DNA of 64,000 bases from Tubulanus polymorphus (Eukaryota; Nemertea; Palaeonemertea; Tubulaniformes; Tubulanidae): contig NC_134029.1 of assembly GCF_964204645.1 (NCBI RefSeq), positions 5,775,001-5,839,000 of the forward strand. Direction: 5' to 3'. The notes under the pieces are model-generated. The model ran no database searches and was not told the DNA's origin. It saw only the letters and a program-made list of their open reading frames with translations. The position numbers and the translations under genes are program-made. Below, piece by piece: positions 6,705 to 59,500 of the stretch. The stretch's first letter is position 1. The number at the start of each line of letters is the position of its first letter.

Positions 6705-14851
<8,147 letters not shown>

Positions 14852-35236: not shown

Positions 35237-35380
35237 TTTTACTATCGAGAAAAATAGACGTGTAGACTGAACTTTGTGTATGTTTGCTTTGTCACATTTT
35301 TCGGGAAAACTTGGAATTCGTTTGAAATATCTCAGGAAAAACTTAGTGACTTAAATTTTTCTCGATCGAATAAGGATATC

Positions 35381-36367
35381 ATGGATGAATTGGTGAATCA
35401 ACTACCAAACGAATTAGTGGACGACTCGGACTCGCTCAACAAAAACCCATCATGTGTTTTGGGATCGCAAACTTTTACACGGAATCTAGAATCAAACTCT
35501 GCGACAAGTTCTTTCAGCGATATTTCTGCTCTGGAGTCAGGTAACGATGCCGGTGCTGTGGACGACGAATTCGACGATGATGACGACCTTATGGACGAAA
35601 TCACGTCAGTAGGAAAACATAGACAAACGTCTTCGCAGCAAGGCCGACAATTCGCAGACGTGAAGCCGCCATATTCTTACATCGCGTTGATAACCATGGC
35701 TCTGGAGAGCTCGAATATCGGTATGATGACTTTGAACGATATCTACGCTTATATCATGGAACGATTCCCATATTTTCGCGATAACCAACAGAGATGGCAA
35801 AATTCCATACGACATAACCTATCGCTTAATGACTGTTTCGTTAAAGTACCGCGCGCTCCCGGGCGACCGGGCAAAGGTAACTACTGGGCCTTGCACCCGG
35901 CTTGCGGCGATATGTTCGCTAACGGAAGCTTCTTGCGCCGAGCGAAAAGATTCAAATCACAGAAACGTCGCCGCAATTTAGCGCTCGGTGGTTCAGCGAA
36001 TTTTTCGCCGCTAAATCAGACCCCATACGGACAATTTAGTATGTACGGAACAGCTCAGAATCTGAACACTTTTATGAATGGCTACAGCAGCCCGTTTCCA
36101 CAGCTCAGTTACTCTCCGCCGTTCGGAAATTCGAATAGAGATTGGAACAATTCTTCGTTGTCCAGTTGTAGTTTTACCCCGGCAGTTAATCCGGCATTCG
36201 GCTCGGCATATTTCAATTCGGTTTCTCAGATTCCCAGTTTTCCGTCATCAAACTCGGCATGTTCTGGATCGACAACTAGTTCGTACAAAATCCAACAGCA
36301 GACGCCTTACAATATGGGACAACATTATCCGTATCAAAACAATTTACGATTAGCATCAATTCAATAA
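35381..36367 (+). CDS. Forkhead-box transcription factor, FoxAB-like, single exon
   Basis: DNA-binding regulator, 328 residues from ATG 35381. An in-frame extension upstream lacks a good start and is not family-like, so this ATG ([10 protein letters not shown]) is preferred. An acidic region ([10 protein letters not shown], residues 61-70) precedes the winged-helix domain at about residues 95-191: [85 protein letters not shown]. The HPACGDMF segment recalls FoxB and the rest recalls FoxA/E. This mixture is typical of FoxAB, a class I recall from lophotrochozoans, echinoderms and amphioxus but not vertebrates. The C-terminal half is Ser/Asn/Gln/Tyr-rich and no EH1 repressor motif is clear. A poly(A) signal AATAAA lies near 36521. 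The forkhead family is certain; the subclass is a judgement from memory. Confidence 0.95.
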
Positions 36368-38688: not shown

Positions 38689-38800
38689 TCTCAGATCTAA
38701 AAACGACTCGTACGGGCTTCCGTAAGTTAGCGTGTTATTTTGTTACAACCGAAGCCAAGAAATTTGTTAATTTTAAATACAATTCAATAAAATAGCAGAA

Positions 38801-40640
38801 ATGGAATCTGAAGATACCGAGGATGGTAAAATCGATGATTGCACAGCCAAAGAAATGCTCAAAATACAACTTCAGGAATTAGAAATGTTGGAGAGCATGT
38901 TTCCTGACGAATTTACCATGGAGGATCCCGCTGCTAAAATCTATGTCAACAATTTCGTCATTGGAAATATCCCATACGATTCAATAAAGGACGTCAGACT
39001 CGCTCTAACTATGAAAATCGAAGAATGTGGGGAAATAAAGGTAGACTGCTGGACGTATATCTCTGTTTCAAAGTATGAATTGATAAAAAAAGTTTTGCCA
39101 AGAGGGAATCTATTAATTGAGAATGATGATAGAATTCTCGAATTTTCTTTAGGCCGGCATCCGGGTTCGTTCATAACTTCTCAATTTGTGAGTTGAAAAG
39201 TATGGCACGTGCATCTTATTTTGGAAAATTGAGGCGGCCTCTGATCCCTGGGAATGTTGATATTTTTAATAAAGTAAACATTGTAACTTTTTTTTCATTT
39301 CCCAAAAGATGGAGTTGATATTTCACTTCTTCCAAAAACTTATCTTAGTTTTACTCAAAGACACTCTTACCTTTTCATGCATCTACTTGAAATCTGATAT
39401 CTGAAACCACCAAACTATATTCATCAATTATCTTGTCATCCTAGTCTTATGTAATTTATCTATGCACAACTGTTAATCTGATATCATGATGAAATCACGA
39501 AATCAAAGAATGTACAGAGATAAGATAAGAAGGACCTAGACTGTCAGGTTTAATAGCGCTCCTCGAAAGTCCTTTAAAGTCCTGAAATGGAAATGGGTTA
39601 ATTCAAACCTTGAATATCATGGAATATGCTCTAAAATCATAGTCCTTGAATGGCATAGCCTTACCACGAGATTACAATTTTAAGCTTTATCATCTATGCC
39701 GTAAGGTCATCACGGTTATTGCTAGGTCTAGATCACTAGTCTAATGGATGGACCCAATGTAAATTGGAAATATTATGACCATTAAAAAGCCCTGAAATCG
39801 GGATTTAAAAAAGTGTTTGAATCAGAGGCAAAAAGTAATTGAAGGTCCATATATTGAAATTGGTCATGGGGACTATGAACCCTGGACTATCAACTCAATT
39901 TCGAAATATCATAGCGTTAAAGGTTTTAGTTTTGATTTTCATTTCGATGATGTTCTATTCTATTTCAGGGTATCGAATTGGTTTGCCAGTTTCCGCACGA
40001 TTACCCCGCCGTGAAACCGGAATTATTCGTGCGGTCGCCGTTTTCACGAAGCGCTCACATGAACTTCAACGACGACGTTCACGAGCATTTACTCGGGTTC
40101 GAATCGGGCGAAATATGCGTGTATCCTTTGGTCGAGTGGATCCGCGAAAACTGCGAGAAATACAACGCGGACGCAACTGTTTCGCGGCAGACTAGATCCG
40201 ATAACCAAGGGGAAGAAGATTCTACGTTCATCAGGATATGGATTTATAGTCACCATATTTACAGCAAGTTCAAACGAAAAGATATACTCGACTGGGCTAA
40301 AGAGTTAAAATTAACGGGTTTCAGTATGCCAGGGAAACCGGGCGTTATCTGTATAGAGGGTTACAGTCGTAACGTGGATGAGTTTTGGCATAGAATCCGT
40401 CGTTTGAATTGGAAACGGCTAGTAATGCGCGACAGACAAGAAGTTGAACTCGACGATCGATTGTGTATAAACGACGTTCAGAAATTTACGAAATTTGAAG
40501 AAATGGTTTTCGATGCTAGAGCGGGGAAGGGCAGGGAATATCATATGGATTTAGGGCTTTTTTATAAGTTTCTTAAAGAACACGATTGTTCAGAAATATT
40601 TAGTCTTTATTTCGGAGTCGATGGTACATCGGCGGAATAG
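38801..40640 (+). CDS. RWD domain-containing protein 2 (RWDD2A/B-like), two exons
   Basis: Exons 38801-39040 and 39969-40640 give 303 residues; human RWDD2A is 292 and RWDD2B 319. The junction is GAAATAAAG|GTAGAC to TTTCAG|GGTATC, phase 0, giving EIK-GIELVCQFPHDYP. The N-terminal RWD domain (about residues 15-125) has LQELEMLESMFPDEF, MKIEEC, FPHDYPAVKPELFVR and GEICVYPLVEWI. RWD domains are ubiquitin-conjugase-like folds used for protein contacts. The C-terminal DUF1115-type domain has RIWIYSHHIYSKFKRKDILD, LTGFSMPGKPGVICIEGY, VDEFWHRIR, FEEMVFDAR and FYKFLKEH. The biochemical role of the family is poorly known. Without splicing the first exon stays open into the intron to 39196. The poly(A) signal is at 40794. 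Single-copy family; paralogue A or B cannot be assigned. Confidence 0.95.
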
Positions 40641-43011: not shown

Positions 43012-46000
43012 ATGTCCGAGATATCAGTAATCTACGGACCACGGCACATGGATGGAAATATCGAGCAACCCGGTTTGCCACCGCCTCCATACGAAGCGGC
43101 TGTACACCAATCTGATTCACTATGCTACATGGATTTCTGGCCGAAAAGTCTCGATCATCACGATAACATCCGAAATACTAGATTCGAACCGTTTGAGTAA
43201 GTCGGCTGGATTAATGTAGTATAGAGATAACAAATTGAAATTGACATCCTTTGCAAAATAAATACAAGGAAAACGGCGAAATCTTTTTTTTTCAATAGTT
43301 CGTTAATGGACAAGGCAAATGCCTGGCTAGCCGGTACGCCGAATGCTTGCGTTAAGAGCTGTGAAACTATCGAAAAAAAGGTCGACAATTTTGATGATAT
43401 ATATTGCGGCAAAATGAACTACTCGGGTTCCAGCTCGAGAGCGATTTTCATCCAAGGCCTCAGGTAAGTTCCGTTTCCAAGGTGAATGAAGGTTTTTCTG
43501 AGAATTAATTATAATTTGAAAGAATCATATTAGCACCTAAGCGTCGTATATGGTACGTAGACATTATCGCATATGATATGCACTCAGGATCTGTTATCAT
43601 TTCCGGAAAATGCAGGATATGGTTTGCTTTGGAAAACAGAGGCGCTCAAACAACTCAACCAATGGCAAAACGATTGGGTTACATGAACGTCGTCCCTAAA
43701 CGTCTAAGCCACGATGACCATTACGCCGAATTTGAAAGTTTCAATAGCCTCATGTCATCGTTAAATTCCCGTTTGGAACAGAATCCTTTGGAGGGTAAGT
43801 ATGTGGCGATAATCATTTCCATTCGCGTAGCTTCAAAATACTGTGGGATGTTGGTAAAGATGTACTGAGCTATAGGCGATGATAGAACAGCCGAACGGAA
43901 AAATTAACCGCGGAAAATTAAATCAAAAATTAACTACCATATTCAGTTAAATTAAGTGCATAGATCTTTTAACATGTCACTTTTGAGAATATCGGAATGA
44001 TTCCTGAATTAGTTGAGGAAAATTAGTTCGCTGGGAAGTCGTCAAACGGGAACGGCGTGCTCATCTGCTAAAATAAGTCAGTTTAATGTGGAAGTTTATG
44101 CGGCCAGCTAAACGAATCAAAATGGCATTGGTCGCTGCCATGTAATATTATACGTAGCTACCAATTTCGGTGTCAAAATACATAGAATGGATGTACCAGT
44201 TTGTTATCCACATCGGTATTCGAATTACCAATACCCAACTCATCGGCGTGTGCAATGGTAACCCCTGATGGCGGGAACAAAACGTGGTCCAGTTCAGGGC
44301 GTATATTGGGCTTGCTAGGTGGGGTTTGACAACGATTCAGTATAACTTTTCACTTACATCCAAAAATAAACATGCTGCAAATATTTGTTTTAAGAATATG
44401 AAATACAAATATATCACCACGCCCTTAGATCAATCAAATTTCAAGGGATATGCTTCCCAAAAACATTGAACATTTTCGCCAGCAAGATTCTAAATGATTC
44501 AATGATCTAGTAATGTCCAGCATTTGGGTTTTTTGCAGGTCGAATTATTGCAGTTAACACGGTAATAATAAAGGTGACGAAAGAATCAGTCATATGGGAA
44601 GACATAGACATTGATGCTACTAACTGGAAAGCCAAGTACAAAAGCCACGCCTTTTTCTTCCTTCGAATATTCTATGAAATAGGAACGGCAGCCAATGAGT
44701 TAATAGGTAAAAGGAATCGTTAATTGATAAACGTACGTTAAAATAGACGATACTCAATCATTTAAAGTGATCCAATTGATAACCGGGAAAATTTTGAAAA
44801 CACCTTTTATTCTCAACCGGTCAAGTTCGATTACTTTTACGCAAGACGTTGCTTTCGAAAAAAAACTTCGGGTCTAATTTTGAGATATCAAATCAGCTTT
44901 AAAAACGCAGGGATTTCCTTTTTTCAGGATTTGTGGATTTTATACCGGATGTTATGATCGAAGAGCGATCATTGCGAAGTCCCATACCGATATACACGCC
45001 ATTTCAACAAGCTAGCGAGTGGATACGTCAAAATGGCCAGGTAGAATAATGACAATTCAATTCAATTCAATTCAAACATACGTAGAATATTTGACTTCGC
45101 TGAAAACCTTGCTGCCGTTCCGTTGTAACTCGTAGCGTTTCTTTTTGTTTTTGTTTTAGGAGATTCGAGTCACCAACATGCAGACTTTGCCTTATCTCAG
45201 GGGCAGAGGTAAGTGTTAGGACATAAGAATCCCAGCATTACAGCTCATATGAATCCATACTTAAATCTAAGCTGGCCAACTGAAATTTTGAAATGACTTC
45301 GATTCCACGGTCAATTTCATACTGACGATATTGATTATGATATTCTCCATGGTTTCAGATAATTCCCGTGTTAGCACGCGCGCTTCGCTCGTGTACACGA
45401 TGGCTGGTGCCGAAATGTCCGACACGTATTTTCTGCGAGTAGCCTACGTGCGGCCGATCCATGACATCCTGATGAACGCTGTCGTTCCTTACGTAACGTT
45501 TAAAACTTTTGTACCGTCCTATATAAGATTTGATTTTTCAACTGGTGCTGTTTTCGAAACGATGGACGAGGTGATGTACAGAGCTAGAGTTTGGATAAAC
45601 GCGACAGGTGATTAGAGGCAATAACTGTCGTATTCAGCTTCTGTGCCATTATTTCAGTGAATTGCACACATTCTTCCTCGTGTTGCAGGGGCAAAGATTT
45701 TGTTCGCCGAAACTGCTGGACCGGTAGAAGAAAAAGTCGCTTACGAAAAAACGACCGATTCCAGGCTAAGTCCGCATCGATCTCCGACTTGTAGCGGCGG
45801 AAGCGACAGAAAATCTATATACTACGTTTTGTAAGTTTTAAATTGTACGCGGAAGACCGACCTGGTGCCGGATCCTCGCCTGCCATACGTGGAATCCTCG
45901 ATTGCCACAGTAGCGGTGCGGCTACCCCGTTATCGATATCTTCAAATCCAAAATTAATATTGATCCTAATATTATATGAATTGTACATATCATCATATCA

Positions 46001-46320
46001 TACATCGTCATTTATTGTCGGCGATATAACGCAATAAATGTGTTATTTTTCAAGGCGTCAATAAACGTTCAAGTTAAGACGGCACATTGACACATTAAAG
46101 TCTATCTATTTCTACTTGGGACTATTTATTTCTACTTGGAGGTACTTCTAATCTCAAGCATGTTTTAATGTAGTAGTTCTCAATGCATGTTTATTTCAGG
46201 TTGTACCTTGATGGCTACTACCCGGAACCGCCACCACACGTGTTACCACCATTACCCAGCAACGTCCCGGAACCAAACGAAATGGTCGAGGAAGAGGACG
46301 ACTGTTGCATCATCATGTGA
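43012..46320 (+). CDS. Unnamed protein with three divergent repeats, PPPY motif and C-terminal CaaX box
   Basis: Nine exons: 43012-43196, 43299-43463, 43616-43794, 44539-44706, 44928-45040, 45160-45208, 45359-45607, 45689-45830, 46200-46320. Together they give 456 residues with every junction in phase. ATG 43012 follows a splice acceptor, so the 5' UTR is split. GLPPPPYEAA (residues 21-30) contains PPPY, a WW-domain ligand. Three repeats share a Trp helix, a strand with a Thr, and a hydrophobic strand. Repeat 1: ANAWLAGTPNACVKSCETIE then FIQGLRIWFALE. Repeat 2: ASEWIRQNGQEIRVTNMQTL then YFLRVAYVRP. Repeat 3: ARVWINATGAKILFAETAG then YYVLLYLDGYY. A phase-2 intron falls at the equivalent strand in repeats 1 (GLR|IWF) and 3 (VL|LYL). 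The tail is proline-rich (PEPPPHVLPPLP), then acidic and ends CCIIM; CIIM is a valid CaaX prenylation signal, so membrane attachment is likely. Poly(A) signal near 46551. I know of no named family; function unassigned. Confidence 0.9.
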
Positions 46321-56080: not shown

Positions 56081-56536
56081 GCTTCGATAAAGTAGTGCGG
56101 AGATGCTGAGCTTGACCAGTGCCTATGCATTCTACCCCAGGTATGAAAAATCAACTTAGCTTTATGTATGTATGTATTCCTGTTGCCATGCAGGATGAGG
56201 TCAAGACTGCCAGGTTCGGTTGCGGCATGTCTTTCGGTGTTTGGTGGTACAATAGGTAATTACAACTTTAGTCAGTTGCCTAAAGTAATTTAATATCTTT
56301 CACTTATTGAAAACTAATTTATGATCATTAGAAGGAGTCACTCACTTACTCCGTAATTGGCGTATCAAAGCAAACGCAACTGAGACTAATTTTTGTTTCA
56401 ATTTCCACAATAACTTGCTTTGATCAAATTATTTACTGAACGACCACAGTTCAATTTTGAATAGGTAATTACAACTTTAGTTGCCTACTGTTAGTAATTA
56501 CACTTTCCGTAATACTATATAAAGTCACAATTTTTA

Positions 56537-59500
56537 GACAGGGCCATCATTCATCGACACAATTACGCATCGAGAAAAATTCAACCCCGTCGTCGTAAGG
56601 TCCGTTGGCCTTGTAGTGTTTGCAGCCTGGAATGTATAGATCATTCGATATATTGTCCCTTCTGTGAAATGTGGAGCCATTCAAGCTGCGAGAAAATATC
56701 AGCAAATATATTGGAAAGTCTTGGTGAACTGCCTGGAAATTATAGCTGCAACTCGTGCCGCCACGAAGAAGACGGTTCATTATCTTATGGCCACGCACTA
56801 AAACGATTGGAAGAGTCTGCGATGAAAGGAATAAAAGGTCTAAAGGATGAAGCAAAAATGCTTACGTTACTTTTCCCTGACCAAGAGTCGAAAATGCAAT
56901 TATCCGAATTAGTTAAAGAGTCAGAACTTCAAGTCGATGGGTACAGCAAACACCTGCTAGATATGATCGGACCATCGAATAAGATTCCAATTCGAGTTCG
57001 AGGAAATGGAAATTGTCTATTTAATTCAGTTTCCGTCGCACTTTCAGGAACAGAAGAATTGGCGACGGAACTGAGAGTACGAACTTGTATGGAAATGGTA
57101 TTGAATTCAACATTCTATAAGAACCATGGTAATTATGCTGACTTCCTAAAGTGTTCTCCTGAATTCGACACAGCATGTCTTGAAGCAACCAAGAACCACT
57201 CATATTCTTCGATATTTACAGTTCAGGCATTGGCAACCGTTTTACAACGGCCAATAATGTCCGTGTACCCAGCAGTCAACGGAATTTTTGATCATTGCGC
57301 TAGAATACTTAATTGCAATTTTAATCCAAGAGACAAAGGTATCGCCAAGAAAAGAAAACGACAAAATCAACAAGAAATCTATTTAATGTGGACTAAGTCG
57401 ACTACAGATGAAAGGCCAAGAACAGATGAAACAGACCAAACCATTTCGTTCCACTATTGGAAAAAGAAAAGGCGATGAAGGAACGAAAGATAGGGCCACC
57501 ACCCGAGCAGAAACGAGTTGAACAACGTAAGAAAAGGAATGTCCATTTTACTCCAACCAAAAGAGAAATGAAATCGACGAAATGGCCGAAAAGCGGAGCC
57601 GAAATATCAGTCCAGTCCGACGACACACATCAACACCAGAAATCAGCAACCAGTTTGAAAAGAAAACCGTTCCAGTCGAAGAGTTCAACCGAAGTGAATT
57701 TTTGACATCATCTCCGATTCTTGATGAATCGTGGGATTTATCACCGAAATCAAGTCTTGAGGAAAAGGATGAATTTCAGGAAACCGATGCACTGAATGCA
57801 AGTCGAAAAGTAAGAGAAATCAGTATGTGTGTGGATGTCGAGGGAACGAATGAATTTTCAGTAATGTCAGAAGAAGTTATAGAAGATACGTCGATCAATT
57901 ACCAACGTCTTCAGAACGGTCGTTTCCTTGATAGCATGGATATACTTGGTATTTGTGAAAACACAAAAAACACACCAAAATTAACTCAAATCCCAACGTT
58001 AAAGAAAATTTGTTTTACGTGCTCGACAATTGCCAGAATGTCGATAGGAGAAAGAAACAATATAAAAGTAATTTTACAGATGATTGCGGCGCTTGGGTAT
58101 CGAGCTCGTCATCCACAAAGAAAGTGCTCCTTTATCCCGAAGGTGATCGCTACAAAGTGACAGAACTAAAAAACAGTCTATATTTTACTAAAATCAAGGG
58201 TGAATGGTTACCATTGAAGCCGCAGCCAAATCGCGATGATATCGTTGATCTTCGTCGTTTCTACGCAACATTAAAACGAAAAAACGACTATAAGAAGCGC
58301 ATTTCTTGGATCGAAAACGGACCAGCTAAATTCAACCAGACAATTTCTGTTGTTGAATACATCGGTGGTTTCCCTACCACTAGAAGCGCTCATGGCCACG
58401 CAAAGCATTCAACAAATGAATACATCCGCACGGCACCAGATAGAATCGAAACGATATGTAGAGAGGTTGAGAATAATAACCCAAGCACAGTATATCGGCA
58501 AATGGCTCAGGCGGATGACTCGATCGATGCTCCACGTAATTTGAAGCAAGTCCAAAATGCGAAATATAAAGTCGACCGCGAGAAACGAGATGCCCAGACC
58601 GCAACAAAATCGAACAGAAAAAATACAGCGGACGATATGCAAACAGTCATGAATATGATGGGAGAAAACAAATTCATAAAGGAGATCGTACAACTAGACG
58701 GCAAACCACCAAATGTCATCCTGTACACCGATGAACAATTGCACGATGTTCGCAAGTTTTGTATTGAGGCCGAGCATCCTGAAGTTTTAGGTGTTGACCG
58801 AACTTTCAATCTCGGTCCGTGTTATCTAACACTTACAGTGCATAAAAATATCAACTTGTTACGCTGTAAAACTAATGAACCTCCAATTATGCTGGGCCCT
58901 ATGTACCTACACTGGGATGGATGATGTATTACTTACCAACGTTTTTTTTCCCATCTTAGAGCGGCACTTGAAGGCGATATAACTACTCAGGTCGGATTTT
59001 CTGAGCTTTTAGTCGGTTCCGACGAAGAAACGGCGCTACTGAAAGCCATCAAACAAAGTTTTCCGAACGCCCAACAGGTATTATGTCATCGACATTTGGA
59101 AGAAAACGTCCGGAGACACCTTCAACACAAGGTCGGGGCGAATGATAAAATAAAACACAATGTGATTAAATCTATATTTGGAAAAAACGGTATTTTAGAT
59201 AGCGAAAGTGAATTTGATTTCGAGAACATGGTAATGAATATAAGAGAGAAGATCACGCGTGTAGTTCCAAATATTCTATCTTATTTTGAGAAACTCGTTC
59301 CAAAACTTAAAAACTATGTATTTGAACCAAAATTAAGAAACCATTGGATTCCTACGAATTGGACAAAATTGCGAGTCATTGAATCACGTTATTAAGATGG
59401 CGATAAACTGGAAAATTCAGAAAGTGCCCGACTTAATTACAAAGTTGCACGAGATCGTACGACTTCAGTATATTGACATGAGGCGAGCTTTACACGGCCA

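Follow-up and report, generated by a model that had tools for sequence, protein, structure and literature searches.

The window gene (the window being the whole stretch of 64,000 nucleotides of Tubulanus polymorphus DNA that was analysed) encodes a protein that opens with a tail carrying a single PPxY motif, continues with four repeated modules and ends in a putative CaaX box. Both end signals recur in three intact paralogs of the same genome. In our reading the protein is a prenylated cytosolic adaptor by which a partner with WW domains, most likely a Nedd4-type ligase, would be recruited to a membrane; we put the probability of this reading at about 0.45.

The gene is located at positions 43012-46320 of the window on the plus strand, on contig C5 of a genome of 268 million bases. 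A splice check of the proposed exons yielded nine exons with 456 codons and a stop, and all eight introns were of the GT-AG type (Table 1). The complete nine-exon gene of 456 residues that the earlier note had proposed stands, and three paralogs have the same layout. Exon 2 has a length of 165 bases in the window gene as well as in paralogs A and C and of 162 bases in paralog B. Exon 6 comprises 49 bases in the window gene and 67, 58 and 52 bases in paralogs A, B and C, respectively. Within intron 3 the stretch 44000-44151 has partial copies with 80-86% identity at seven other sites of the genome and probably is an interspersed repeat, judged by these copies.

Table 1. Exons and modules (M1 to M4) of the window gene, its paralogs, and genome loci matched by the window protein. 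Exon positions are those of the window.
Feature	Position	Strand	Content	Basis
Exon 1	43012..43196	+	N-terminal tail with PPPY (residues 24-27), first strand of M1	splice model; PPxY kept in paralogs
Exon 2	43299..43463	+	helix, Thr strand and beginning of last strand of M1	splice model
Exon 3	43616..43794	+	end of M1; first strand and helix of M2	splice model
Exon 4	44539..44706	+	remainder of M2	splice model
Exon 5	44928..45040	+	beginning of M3 (first strand, helix)	splice model
Exon 6	45160..45208	+	Thr strand of M3	splice model
Exon 7	45359..45607	+	last strand of M3; first strand and helix of M4	splice model
Exon 8	45689..45830	+	Thr strand and variable loop of M4	splice model
Exon 9	46200..46320	+	last strand of M4, proline-rich/acidic tail, CIIM, stop 46318-46320	splice model; Cys at -4 in 4/4 intact paralogs
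M1	residues ~36-132
M2	residues ~133-229
M3	residues ~230-326
M4	residues ~327-426
Paralogs A and B	C2:9352282-9367351	minus	tandem pair, ~3.7 kb between; ends CKVS (A) and CTIL (B)	spliced alignment
Paralog C	C2	plus	436 aa, terminal CDIL	spliced alignment
Copy D	C5:22650000-22659900		probable pseudogene
Window gene locus	C5		9 of 24 matches	six-frame search
Matched locus	C2:5.57 Mb		3 of 24 matches	six-frame search
Matched locus	C2:9.35-9.37 Mb		9 of 24 matches	six-frame search
Matched locus	C5:22.65 Mb		2 of 24 matches, E 0.01 and 0.03	six-frame search
Matched locus	C3:4.04 Mb		1 of 24 matches, E 0.007, residues 418-440 only (end of M4 and proline-rich tail)	six-frame search

The window protein, searched against all six frames of the genome, gave 24 matches up to an E of 10. 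Spliced alignment recovered three intact paralog genes, A with 475, B with 464 and C with 436 amino acids. The aligner was blind to the intron positions of the window gene; its runs disagreed in the first and last exons as well as in those of M3, and the borders adopted for the paralogs were partly chosen by hand. All four intact nine-exon genes share the intron phases 2,2,1,1,0,1,1,2 at pairwise protein identities of 33-40%. The seventh intron of paralog B apparently is GC-AG. In six of six pairs of intact genes codon position 2 was the least and position 3 the most divergent, a pattern that fits the expectation for constrained reading frames. The last model of copy D, in contrast to the intact genes, is interrupted by three in-frame stops, one of them within a poorly modelled stretch. 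They fall in the first exon and in M2, so D is probably a pseudogene by its sequence, although a PPAY and a terminal CHIL are still readable. The number of five copies in the genome is a lower bound, coming from a single protein search. Within the 64-kb window tblastn detected no second copy. Furthermore, an HMM of all 16 modules, run in six frames over the window and the paralog regions, gave no hits below E 0.01 beyond the five gene copies; thus neither a fifth module nor an additional gene is indicated in these regions.

The PPPY motif and the C-terminal CIIM, both pointed out in the earlier note, are present in the window protein. Each intact protein contains exactly one PPxY, which is situated ahead of M1 at position 24, 38, 22 or 14; degenerate PY forms are outside this count. 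The motif lies outside the folded modules, and the variable tail around it suggests that it is accessible. At the other end a Cys at position -4 was found in four of four intact proteins (CIIM, CKVS, CTIL and CDIL). It is the sole invariant column of the last 12 residues, and in each case it is combined with a C-terminal residue that is accepted by FTase or GGTase-I, as in a CaaX box. The first aliphatic place is occupied by Lys in CKVS of paralog A and by Asp in CDIL of paralog C. The residue X is M or S in two copies and L in three, D included. As a general rule X = M or S suits farnesyltransferase and X = L geranylgeranyltransferase. Across the four proteins no 19-residue window has a Kyte-Doolittle mean of 1.6 or above, as for a transmembrane segment, and anchoring to the membrane would accordingly be by the lipid. 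With PPxY, modules and CaaX box kept in all four intact genes, the architecture described earlier is no chance find of one gene, and its repeat count alone needs correction. As far as sequence can tell, the conserved ends speak for prenylation and for a motif that binds WW domains; the Nedd4-type partner suggested in the earlier note is plausible.

The repeat count had been three. These repeats are real and correspond to M1, M3 and M4, but count and strand list were incomplete: M2, which had been overlooked, is the best match of M1, and an opening strand (YMDFWP, YMNVVP, FVDFIP and TFKTFVP) was missing from the description of the module. Four modules of about 97 residues each result. Their borders were tried without the opening strand at first and were redrawn after self-alignment and tblastn; a MAFFT alignment of the modules with a poorly placed M4 was left out. 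The alignment of 16 modules displays the apparent order strand, aromatic-rich turn, helix, strand, long variable loop and last strand. The terminal Pro of the first strand is invariant throughout, a Trp is present at one site of the helix in 10 of the 16 modules and a Thr at one site of the second strand in 14. An Arg of the last strand is found in 15, the exception being M4 of the window gene itself.

Self-alignment of the whole window protein scored 73, while the maximum across 600 shuffles was 58. The Smith-Waterman score of 72 for M1 and M2 was reached by 0 of 5000 shuffles and that of M1 and M4 by 4 of 5000. The remaining pairs were not significant in these shuffles (M1-M3 669, M2-M3 1499, M2-M4 3381 and M3-M4 1872 of 5000). 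HMMs built from the other three modules recovered M1, M2 and M4 with 0 of 2000 shuffles each and M3 with 2 of 2000, results somewhat favoured by the fact that the alignment had contained the tested module. An HMM of M1 and M2 alone recovered M4 (0/2000 shuffles) and placed M3 at 54/2000. Comparison of the family profiles by hhalign yielded probabilities of 95.8 for M1-M2, 85.9 for M1-M3, 77.7 for M2-M4, 74.7 for M1-M4, 30.4 for M2-M3 and 4.9 for M3-M4. Self-alignments of single paralogs were weaker than that of the window protein, being reached by 12 of 300 shuffles for A and 3 of 300 for C. For B none of 300 shuffles reached the score, but the alignment ends in acidic stretches and thus is no evidence for modules. 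A crude propensity profile is consistent with the order strand, helix, strand, strand for M1, M2 and M4, and to a lesser degree for M3; part of the second strand of M1 was read as helix. A structure prediction of M2 alone, run without an alignment, is unreliable, with a mean pLDDT of 48.6 and with helices at the end where the sequence suggests a strand. Taken together M1, M2 and M4 are firm as modules at the level of sequence comparison. For M3 the profiles, its position and the layout point to a module.

The positions of the introns were compared between modules. The shared phase-2 intron noticed previously is located in the last strand of M1 and M4, at the same aligned codon in four of four proteins. 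In all four genes M2 and M4 each have a phase-1 intron between helix and second strand, their positions differing by one column, and a phase-0 intron of M3 is at the column of M4's intron. Random placement of the eight introns of the window gene did as well in 979 of 20000 trials when column and phase had to match exactly, in 144 of 20000 with a slack of one column and in 369 of 20000 with two. The coincidence of introns between modules is supportive but modest.

The earlier note could not place the protein in a named family, and no significant matches were found in Pfam, NCBIfam, PHROGs and PDB sequences. Pfam had none for the window protein, none up to E 10 for any of the four paralogs and none for five consensus modules; two of the four window modules gave marginal hits, to CDC24_OB2 (E 0.19) and DUF7400 (E 0.24), which fall far short of the cut-off. 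Up to E 1 the window protein was unmatched in NCBIfam, where one of the four paralogs had a marginal hit to a V-ATPase model (E 0.088). PHROGs gave only touches at E 0.06-0.19, and searches of PDB sequences ended either without a hit or with marginal ones between E 0.028 and 1.6. The module profile had a touch of E 0.028 with the NFACT protein NEMF, covering 50 positions of the first strand and helix, and one of E 0.33 with an FbpA over a different stretch. No NFACT domain was matched in Pfam, and both touches were taken as chance. Viral contigs, scanned with the window protein, with the alignment of the family and with that of M2, returned 2, 97 and 79 pattern stretches, respectively, and genome contigs returned 150, none of which was confirmed; such scans detect relatives that retain a short peptide pattern only. 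Among phages paralog B had no match up to E 1 and the window protein had one at E 2. This hit to Aeromonas phage AVP1 (31%) was discarded, as it extends from one annotated gene into the next. Paralog B had no match up to E 1 among plasmids either. The collections searched were viral, phage, plasmid, prokaryote and family libraries and PDB sequences, with no animal proteome set among them, and databases may well contain orthologs that are labelled as uncharacterised. Among the papers listed by PMC searches for the motif pair, motif strings and family none appeared to concern a protein like that of the window.

The surroundings of the gene were inspected as well. Upstream on the same strand an open frame at 39951-40640 has RWD and Prp3_C matches, while the open frame at 38777-39196 had no Pfam match. 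A 369-residue open frame at 35258-36367 (+) contains a Forkhead domain (Pfam Forkhead, E 1.4e-37), which resembles the FoxAB class. A protein kinase fragment (Pfam PK_Tyr_Ser-Thr, E 1.7e-5) is encoded at 8992-9312 on the minus strand, where a long open frame at 12035-12862 is also found; this kinase region presumably is KSR/Raf-like. The stretch 56513-59392 (+) has a match to an OTU-type cysteine protease (E 1.6e-7) followed by Transposase_mut above and MULE just below the cut-off, and by these matches looks like an OTU-carrying Mutator-like element. A chaperonin match in Pfam is also within the window; like the Forkhead and RWD/Prp3_C matches it is in keeping with the genome of a eukaryote, probably an animal. 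Rfam had nothing in the window at the gathering threshold, and no tandem pairs of seven telomere motifs were present in the first or last 3 kb of two contigs.

We infer prenylation, WW binding, recruitment of a ligase, the identity of the partner and a role of the modules in cargo binding or otherwise as follows. Four homologous modules would make up a cytosolic adaptor, and prenylation of the C-terminal CaaX box would hold it at the membrane. The N-terminal PPxY would dock a WW-domain protein, most likely a HECT ubiquitin ligase of the Nedd4 type. The modules in turn may bind cargo or oligomerise, whereby cargo and ligase would meet at the membrane. The adaptor reading is supported by the retention of both end signals in all four intact genes despite their low identity and by the related motifs of copy D. 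It is weakened by the charged residues at the first aliphatic place in two of the CaaX boxes and by the density of invariant positions, which amount to 69 of 389 in the modules, 6 of 35 in the N-terminal tail and 2 of 29 in the C-terminal tail and thus are no denser in the one tail and sparser in the other than in the modules.

These numbers also bear on an alternative in which four domains form a core that binds a ligand or lipid, the prenylation is real and the PPxY is a minor site controlling the turnover of the protein itself, as PPxY motifs also mark substrates of ligases. By number the modules do hold most of the invariant residues, but the N-terminal tail is conserved as densely, its invariants being largely the PPxY while the rest of the tail varies in length and sequence; we consider this explanation unlikely. 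A further weakness of the adaptor reading is that many WW proteins besides the Nedd4-type ligases are bound by PPxY, which is equally a ligand for the WW domains of YAP-type co-activators. A membrane-bound signalling protein could hold such a non-ligase partner outside the nucleus, and the PPxY kept in all four intact paralogs would suit it. Yet no feature of the sequence favours a partner of this kind, and the explanation appears quite improbable. Least probable is a scaffold held by its lipid anchor, in which the PPxY would act like a late domain and serve vesicle budding or sorting via Nedd4-type ligases and ESCRT, while the modules would drive assembly: membrane signal, PPxY and repeated module follow the same logic as in ARRDC1 and Gag proteins, the known parallels for PPxY/ESCRT budding, but no Gag or arrestin family was matched in Pfam.

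Known soluble proteins with one or the other signal differ from the window protein. Alpha-arrestins (ARRDC/ART) are soluble PPxY adaptors taking Nedd4-type ligases to membrane cargo; the window protein, by contrast, has its PPxY at the N-terminus and a CaaX box, and Pfam searches of the four sequences up to E 10 detected neither arrestin N nor arrestin C domains. RTL8/CXX1 is a small Gag-like cellular protein with a terminal CaaX box, whereas the window protein has four modules, introns and a PPxY, and no Gag or capsid domain was matched by Pfam in the four sequences.

The favoured adaptor reading has its closest counterparts among the PY-motif adaptors that recruit Nedd4-type ligases, as described in passages of PMC12720080, where membrane tethering and clustering contribute to activation of the ligase. 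The adaptors in these passages are mostly transmembrane, as are NDFIP2 with three PY motifs, TMEM127 and SUSD6 (PMC12720080). The window protein would be like them a membrane-held protein whose PY motif recruits a Nedd4-type ligase; yet it has one PPxY, a CaaX box, four modules and no predicted transmembrane segment. The transmembrane segments and several PY motifs of a canonical Ndfip protein were found in none of the four intact proteins. The single PPxY counts both for and against the adaptor reading: TMEM127 binds WWP2 and requires its one PPxY for this, but it activates the ligase with SUSD6 and not alone (PMC12720080, passages on TMEM127). Dvl2 is cytoplasmic with one PPxY, as the window protein would be, and its DEP domain and polymerisation are also needed (PMC12720080, passages on Dvl2). 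The window protein has no Pfam match and hence no recognisable DEP domain, and it carries a CaaX box, while prenylation of Dvl2 is unmentioned in those passages. A lipid anchor with one PPxY and four modules for cargo contact or clustering would fit the adaptor pattern by analogy.

Beyond the single protein, it is conceivable though doubtful that the genes belong to an undescribed animal family of a four-module fold, whose several members would be soluble, lipid-anchored adaptors of Nedd4 ligases with differing CaaX types and membranes. If this were true, farnesylated (M/S) and geranylgeranylated (L) paralogs would possibly act at different membranes. Adaptors of Nedd4-type ligases determine which proteins get marked, and where. 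Soluble adaptors tied to the membrane by a lipid would, if they exist, be regulated differently and be open to prenyltransferase inhibitors. Finally, the module, for which the search of Pfam-A gave no match, could be the starting point of a new family model, with which several genes of this genome would be annotated together.
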